Shown one piece after another: positions 7,137 to 8,494 of a stretch of 35,609 bases of DNA. The position numbers were made by a program, and so were the translations under genes. This DNA comes from an uncultured Prevotellaceae bacterium (GTDB lineage Bacteria; Bacteroidota; Bacteroidia; Bacteroidales; Muribaculaceae). The stretch spans positions 1-35,609 of the forward strand of contig CAMJZF010000013.1 of the NCBI GenBank assembly GCA_946410125.1, given 5' to 3'. A model generated the notes under the pieces. It did no database searches. It saw only the letters and a list, made by a program, of their open reading frames with translations, and was not told where the DNA came from. Within the stretch, counting starts at the first letter, position 1. Each line of letters starts with the position of its first letter.

Positions 7137-8219
7137 TTATCGGCGGTAATGGCGTTTGTAGCTTTTCTTGGAACGTGAAGACTTCGAATATTTTTTAGCA
7201 TCTTTTTTCTTCATTGGCTTCACAGTCTTATAATTATACTTACCATTAGATTTTGTACTTTCTTTTGTGCCTTCCTCGCTAATATCTTTCTCTTCACCAT
7301 TGGCATTGCTTTCCATCGCCTTTATTTTCTTGTAGAGCTTCAAAGCTTCCTCGCCGGCATGACGTAAACTTTGCTTGCTGTCGCTGTTGATGCCATATTT
7401 TTCGGGAGGCGGTATAACAAGCACCGATCCATGAGGAATCTTGTGATAGTTAGGATATTTATCCTGATTCTCACGAGCTATATACACCCAGAAAACCTGG
7501 TCGCCATAGTGCTTCTTAGCCATTAGAGTCAAGACATTGCCATTGGCAAGCGTATCGGTGACTACGGGTTGTGCTTTGGCAGCTACAGTATCGGTCTTGG
7601 CGGTAATATTCTGCTGCCTATTATTTTCAGTCGACTTGCCACCGCGTAACGCCCATGTCGTTAGAGCGACAACCGCTATTGCAGCCACGCCAGCCCACCA
7701 CCACTTAGCAAAACCATTCTTTCCTGGCAGAGGTTCAGGTTCCTCTTTCACCTGAGGTGTGCTTTCCACAATCTTATCAGTAGCAACCGGCTCATCTATA
7801 GGCTTGACCTCGGGCTCTGCCGTGTCCTCAACCTCAGCCATGGGGATTTGTTCCTGAACTACATTTGTGGGCTCTTCCATCTTAGGTTCAGGCTGTTTCT
7901 GTTCCATCTCGGCATCGATTTCGGCAAGCTGTTCATTGGTAATCTCATCGCTGAGTTCCAATGGCTTAAACTGCGCAAAAGGGGCATTTACAGTCTCGGC
8001 AAGGTCGTTGTCGGGGGTGAAAAAAACTTCCTTTTCACCATCAACATTCTTGACCTTGAATGAGCCTATCCCCTTAATCTTCACAATCTCGCCATTGTCC
8101 AAAGCATGTGATACAGTGGCAAACAGTTCCTGAAGGAACAATTCGCTCATGCGAGTGGTGGTTTTTGCCTTCTCGGCCACCAGCTCAACCAGCTGTGGGA
8201 ACGCTATTCTCTCTTTCAT
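7137..8219 (-). CDS. HU-family DNA-binding domain, acidic linker, TM helix, LysM-like domain and basic C-tail
   Basis: N-term HU-like (FPQLVELVAEKAKTTTRMSELFLQELFATVSHALDNGEIVKIKGIGSFKV); TM KWWWAGVAAIAVVALTTWAL (about aa 172-191); LysM-like GNVLTLMAKKHYGDQVFWVYIARENQDKYPNYHKIPHGSVLVIPP (about aa 227-271); Lys/Arg-rich tail. Confidence 0.85.
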   Translation of the reverse strand: MKERIAFPQLVELVAEKAKTTTRMSELFLQELFATVSHALDNGEIVKIKGIGSFKVKNVDGEKEVFFTPDNDLAETVNAPFAQFKPLELSDEITNEQLAEIDAEMEQKQPEPKMEEPTNVVQEQIPMAEVEDTAEPEVKPIDEPVATDKIVESTPQVKEEPEPLPGKNGFAKWWWAGVAAIAVVALTTWALRGGKSTENNRQQNITAKTDTVAAKAQPVVTDTLANGNVLTLMAKKHYGDQVFWVYIARENQDKYPNYHKIPHGSVLVIPPPEKYGINSDSKQSLRHAGEEALKLYKKIKAMESNANGEEKDISEEGTKESTKSNGKYNYKTVKPMKKKDAKKYSKSSRSKKSYKRHYRR

Positions 8220-8494
8220 GACTGGTTGAGTTTTTTCTTGAGAACATTACTTGCGGTGTAATGAACTTCCACCCTTGGAGGAATGAGCATGCGCTTGCCG
8301 GTCTCGCTATCGGTCTCAATTGATTCCTTGTGGTTTATTGCTTCAAGGGTTCCGAATCGAGGCACACTAATGCTGTCAAGCTTCGAGCAACGTTCCTTCA
8401 CTACGTTGCTCAAAGCCTCAAGCAGTTTGCTGATGTCGCTTTTGTTGCGATTAAGCGACTTTGATAGCCTCTCGACCAATTCCTTGTGCTGCAT
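8216..8494 (-). CDS. HU/IHF-family DNA-binding protein (small)
   Basis: 92 aa; LVERLSKSLNRNKSDISKLLEALSNVVKERCSKLDSISVPRFGTLEA...IPPRVEVHYTASNVLKKKL; overlaps the next gene by ATGA. Confidence 0.85.
   Translation of the reverse strand: MQHKELVERLSKSLNRNKSDISKLLEALSNVVKERCSKLDSISVPRFGTLEAINHKESIETDSETGKRMLIPPRVEVHYTASNVLKKKLNQS

Follow-up and report, generated by a model that had tools for sequence, protein, structure and literature searches.

A two-gene Bacteroidota system predicted to anchor an HU-family pair at the cell wall, with DNA-binding features largely decayed in one lineage

The window analyzed here, 35,609 nucleotides of contig CAMJZF010000013.1 from an uncultured Prevotellaceae bacterium, carries two overlapping minus-strand genes whose products would form a membrane-threaded HU heterodimer with a LysM wall anchor. 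In the family at large this dimer would link the nucleoid to the wall, and in the window copy its contact with DNA would be weak or altered; our confidence in this reading falls slightly short of even. The modules, the gene overlap, the conservation of the pair, its natural fusion, the synteny and the loss of the DNA-binding arm were all computed directly. The features are as follows.

8216..8494, minus strand: partner gene, stand-alone HU-family protein of 92 aa (PF00216, E 6.2e-16)
7137..8219, minus strand: HU-TM-LysM gene, 360 aa
7974..8219, minus strand: HU fold of the 360-aa protein, aa 1-82 (Pfam, profile, AF2 model and Foldseek)
8022..8057, minus strand: shortened beta-arm, aa 55-66, KVKNVDGEKEVF (alignments)
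7710..7943, minus strand: acidic Pro/Glu-rich spacer, aa 93-170, mostly predicted to be disordered
7641..7709, minus strand: TM helix, aa 171-193 (AF2 model and hydrophobicity in relatives)
7395..7562, minus strand: LysM module, aa 220-275 (family profile and AF2 model)
7290..7376, minus strand: long helix after the LysM module, aa 282-310 (AF2 model)
7140..7259, minus strand: basic tail, aa 321-360 (composition and alignments)

The plus-strand frame across 7137-8219 is riddled with stop codons, and the 360-aa ORF runs on the minus strand from 8219 to 7137. Its N-terminal HU domain was identified by Pfam (Bac_DNA_binding, E 5.7e-8, aa 9-59) and by an AF2 model with the helix and strand order of HU (pLDDT about 85-92 over aa 11-80). 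HU chains were also the top Foldseek matches of this model (E 3.3e-5, TM 0.82 by target), and the family profile matches HU/IHF structures with E values as low as 1.7e-23. On the basis of its fold the protein belongs to the HU/IHF superfamily, and it is not a canonical DNA-bending HU/IHF. The spacer contains 21 Asp/Glu against 6 Lys/Arg over aa 93-167 (pI 4.1), and most of aa 113-169 is modeled at a pLDDT below 50. Some relatives carry an acidic spacer of several hundred residues and reach a total length of up to 754 aa, so the length of the tether is highly variable. The modeled TM helix corresponds to the one strongly hydrophobic segment present in each of 63/63 relatives, and the C-terminal tail contains 17 Lys/Arg against 1 Asp/Glu. 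A Lys/Arg/His-rich tail was seen only in the clade of the window, where the arm was lost and the pair came to lie between glnS and thiL, and this tail is presumably periplasmic.

A single-sequence Pfam search of the 360-aa protein returned no LysM match, and the module is too divergent for Pfam to recognize from one sequence. However, a profile built from 33 relatives matches the LysM half of Kbp (9.7e-10), the nearest solved LysM by profile, together with other LysM proteins, and 12 of the 33 relatives match PF01476 at E<=1. In the AF2 model aa 220-269 adopt a beta-alpha-alpha-beta arrangement, mostly at pLDDT values above 90, and the fold and motif of LysM (PF01476) are thus recognized through profile and model. 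The first-pass annotation had described, at 7137-8219 and with the strand unstated, a 360-aa ORF with an N-terminal HU-like domain, an acidic Pro/Glu-rich spacer, one TM helix, a LysM-like module and a very basic C-terminal tail, and every element of this anatomy was recovered by the searches, model and composition given above.

The partner gene lies directly upstream of the HU-TM-LysM gene and overlaps it by 4 bp (ATGA), and the pair is retained near-universally among the relatives examined. Within the genus and its near kin, 14 of 36 pairs overlap by 4 bp and the remainder are separated by gaps of 2 to 24 bp, one spacing value of -61 being an artefact of a too-early start codon. At the split loci examined the HU partner neighbors the HU-TM-LysM gene and is read in the same direction. 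Conservation across Bacteroidales, which the first-pass annotation had named as a check, is borne out by the presence of the pair in many families of the order. A phylum-wide LysM search beyond Bacteroidales returned mostly ordinary LysM proteins, the exceptions being four HU-TM-LysM proteins with a partner gene (L103, L112, L120 and L125), from four genomes of a further class in the phylum. The two-gene system is old within Bacteroidota. In these four loci the arms are of the canonical RNPQTG type and the small HU partner is divergent, and L112 and L125 adjoin a gene that by eye resembles a HemW-type radical SAM protein.

HU folds act as dimers, and given the overlapping, dedicated HU gene, the two products probably belong together in nature as an asymmetric HU heterodimer, with one subunit providing the anchor. 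Single-protein HU-HU-TM-LysM fusions occur in two families (L066, L068, L086 and L090). In the clearest fusion the first HU domain scores 26.3 bits with the small-HU profile against 13.0 with the LysM-HU profile, the second scores 50.6 bits with the LysM-HU profile, and the clearest fusion genes occupy the same chromosomal place as the pair, between rimO and moxR. In the other fusion family the first HU domain has diverged further and matches its profile weakly. Such natural fusions are classic evidence that two subunits work together, and combined with the dimeric habit of HU folds they make a heterodimer the natural reading. A natural HU-HU fusion was modeled confidently by AF2 (pLDDT 85.6, pTM 0.75); the similarity of this model to single-chain IHF is only TM 0.45, and chains of microtubule-doublet structures match about equally. 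The alignment rows for this model were supplemented by joining the two genes of nine relatives, with the in-frame stop codons between them read as Gln, and the resulting joined sequences serve the computation and do not exist as proteins.

The beta-arm of HU/IHF carries a DNA-intercalating proline. Between the end of G-x-F and the start of N-x-P-F, the arm measures 38 residues in most LysM subunits, 22 in the window protein and 22 or 23 across its clade, where it is about 16 residues shorter. LysM subunits outside Bacteroidia retain RNPQTG-type arms, which together with their partner are consistent with an ancestral DNA-binding dimer. Most Bacteroidales have valine or another residue in the arm of the LysM subunit and keep the proline in the partner (NP, HP and the like). 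The clade of the window has lost both the arm of the LysM subunit and the partner proline, the arm of the window partner being of full length (ETDSETGKR), and the window pair thus lacks the extended, proline-bearing arm of HU/IHF. The arm state of the LysM subunit and the arm proline of the partner are concordant in 61/63 pairs; in a correlated-evolution test the average number of pairs agreeing in direction was 3.4 of 4, with 4-5 independent contrasts, which are too few for significance. Added over both HU domains, net charge has a median of 0 in short-arm pairs (n=17) and of 7.5 in full-arm pairs (n=46), and it is about +2 in the window pair, compared with +12 per monomer for the housekeeping HU of the same genome. 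A rank test run alongside takes no account of relatedness and carries no weight here. The first-pass annotation had cautioned that the arm looked shortened and that DNA binding might be altered or lost, and this caution proved right, and stronger than stated, once the partner proline and the charge were included. Because arm deletion, loss of the partner proline and loss of charge coincide, DNA holding is less likely for the window copy than for the family, and the grip on DNA appears to have largely decayed in this clade.

These same losses, including a summed charge of about +2 where full-arm pairs have a median of +7.5, also favor an alternative in which the HU pair of the window's clade serves as a protein-protein platform, a membrane and wall scaffold without DNA binding that would hold cytoplasmic clients at wall-defined sites. 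CCDC81-type HU domains have been proposed to act as such a platform, and the resemblance of the tandem-HU model to chains of microtubule-doublet structures speaks for this idea. FimV/HubP proteins provide a precedent as LysM-TM-acidic landmarks that act via protein clients (PMC12918733). However, the alignments still show a conserved HU body with its G-x-F and N-x-P-F motifs, the partner retains its full-length arm and a mild positive charge, and weak DNA binding without bending is possible for HU folds. We regard a scaffold devoid of DNA binding as a substantial possibility that falls clearly below even. For the window's clade, a scaffold whose DNA binding is slight or altered has almost the same probability as a tether. 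The nucleoid-to-wall tether is plausible for the family and weaker for the window copy.

Gene neighborhoods were scored by tblastn. Among 19 wider loci, spread across families outside the clade of the window, 12 have moxR-DUF58-bat immediately downstream of the pair, and at several ftsY and rimO precede it. Within the window's clade the pair follows glnS, with a convergent thiL downstream in 9 of 10 loci checked; thiL was not found at the tenth (L035). The bat genes of the window genome are on another contig than the HU pair, and the lineage has lost the moxR-DUF58-bat-adjacent position. These bat operon genes (L095/L096; G000 contig C8, 35814-37074, minus strand) adjoin the pair in most relatives. 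The linkage to moxR-bat suggests an envelope context. Leptospira biflexa lacking bat after deletion showed no phenotype in growth, shape or oxidative stress (PMC3557215), and since the function of bat is itself unsettled, the synteny suggests this context and no mechanism. The frequent position upstream of moxR-DUF58-bat across families could also be explained if the complex were a membrane-bound regulator of envelope genes, with LysM sensing the state of the wall and the HU pair shaping local DNA, for example at the moxR-bat operon. We consider this improbable, as the separate contig of the bat genes in the window genome and the location of nearly all window-clade loci between glnS and thiL indicate that linkage in cis is not required, and the regulator is a candidate only.

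Returning to the wall-anchored heterodimer, its orientation in the membrane was assessed from the Lys/Arg residues beside the TM segment, topology prediction being a further check named by the first-pass annotation. These residues are more numerous on the HU side in 52/63 relatives, fewer in 6 and tied in 5, and an N-in/C-out topology is therefore likely for the family. In the window protein itself they are tied 3:3, so the flanking charges of this copy alone leave its topology unfixed, and N-in/C-out would be extended to it from its relatives. An inverted topology, with HU and the acidic region outside and LysM and the basic tail inside (a cytoplasmic LysM, as in Kbp), would suit Kbp as the best solved LysM match, the 3:3 tie and a basic tail apt for nucleic acid, but it is very improbable given the family bias of 52 against 6 and the lack of a signal-like hydrophobic segment ahead of the HU domain or anywhere in the partner.

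The preferred reading, a wall-anchored HU heterodimer, would work as follows. The two overlapping genes would supply the subunits of one asymmetric HU-type dimer, one being the soluble 92-aa HU protein and the other an HU protein whose chain passes through the inner membrane to a LysM module in the periplasm. The paired HU domains would sit at the cytoplasmic face on a long acidic tether, and the predicted LysM would hold the complex to peptidoglycan. For the family at large this arrangement may provide a positional link from nucleoid to cell wall. In the window lineage, where the dimer has lost most of the DNA-bending features of HU/IHF, it probably contacts DNA weakly, without bending it, or under regulation. 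The first-pass annotation had pictured a single protein holding DNA on one side and wall on the other. Its modules and the likely family topology agree with this picture; however, a single protein is probably insufficient given the partner HU, and DNA holding is less likely here. The anatomy was right, and the partner gene, the bat synteny and the extent of arm decay had been missed. A broader history, in which this two-gene Bacteroidota system fixes the nucleoid to the wall through the anchored heterodimer and some lineages, that of the window included, dropped DNA bending, kept the anchor and gained a periplasmic basic tail, is speculative and on balance unlikely in its entirety.

Bacteria have no nuclear lamina, and to our knowledge the position of the nucleoid relative to the wall is poorly known beyond a few models. 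A dedicated HU pair with a wall-binding-type module, conserved across a dominant phylum of the gut and frequently a neighbor of the bat operon, offers a concrete target for knock-out and localization. Through the decay of the arm, nature supplies a comparison of copies predicted to grip DNA with copies predicted to lack that grip. Burroughs et al. in 2017, cited in PMC12218091, reportedly described an HU-CCDC81_bac-TM-SPOR type in Bacteroidetes (PF18174/PF18175) and proposed the idea of HU-envelope fusions, and the general idea of an HU-envelope link thus predates this analysis. A described HU-TM-LysM protein was not found in the open literature searched, nor were the small-HU partner, the natural fusions, the bat-operon position or the arm decay, which may still be published; the pairing, the bat linkage and the arm decay may be new.

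Among known systems, the nearest family-level relative is the HU-CCDC81_bac-TM-SPOR type, which shares tandem HU domains, a TM segment and a periplasmic wall-binding-type domain. These proteins carry both HU domains in one protein, whereas the window system divides them between two genes, and they have a SPOR-like C-terminal region (assigned by eye) where the window protein has LysM. PF18175 scores 16.9 bits on the window protein, below the gathering cut-off of 35, and the combination of PF18174 and PF18175 above cut-off with SPOR is not found there. The same genome encodes a second membrane HU protein (L073, 940-1881, minus strand, 313 aa) with HU-CCDC81_bac_1 and _2 domains by Pfam, followed by a hydrophobic stretch and, by eye, a SPOR-like C-terminal region. 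Within the HU/IHF superfamily (PF00216), the window pair resembles above all the IHF heterodimer, as both gene products have an HU fold and two different HU subunits are encoded as a pair, and deep relatives of the window system keep RNPQTG-type arms. Unlike HU/IHF, one window subunit bears an acidic spacer, a TM helix and LysM, and in the window's clade the arm of the LysM subunit is deleted and the partner proline is gone. Kbp (YgaU), although nearest in its LysM, is a potassium-binding BON-LysM protein without TM or HU. Finally, FimV/HubP proteins share a periplasmic LysM, one TM segment and an acidic cytoplasmic region; they differ in their opposite order, signal peptide, cytoplasmic TPR domain and lack of HU and are not homologous as a whole, the window LysM being C-terminal and the window protein having no TPR. 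In FimV/HubP the periplasmic LysM binds peptidoglycan and is required for polar placement, while the acidic cytoplasmic part reaches clients (PMC12918733). FimV/HubP, a different family, is thus a working analogy for what may be a wall-anchored positional link.
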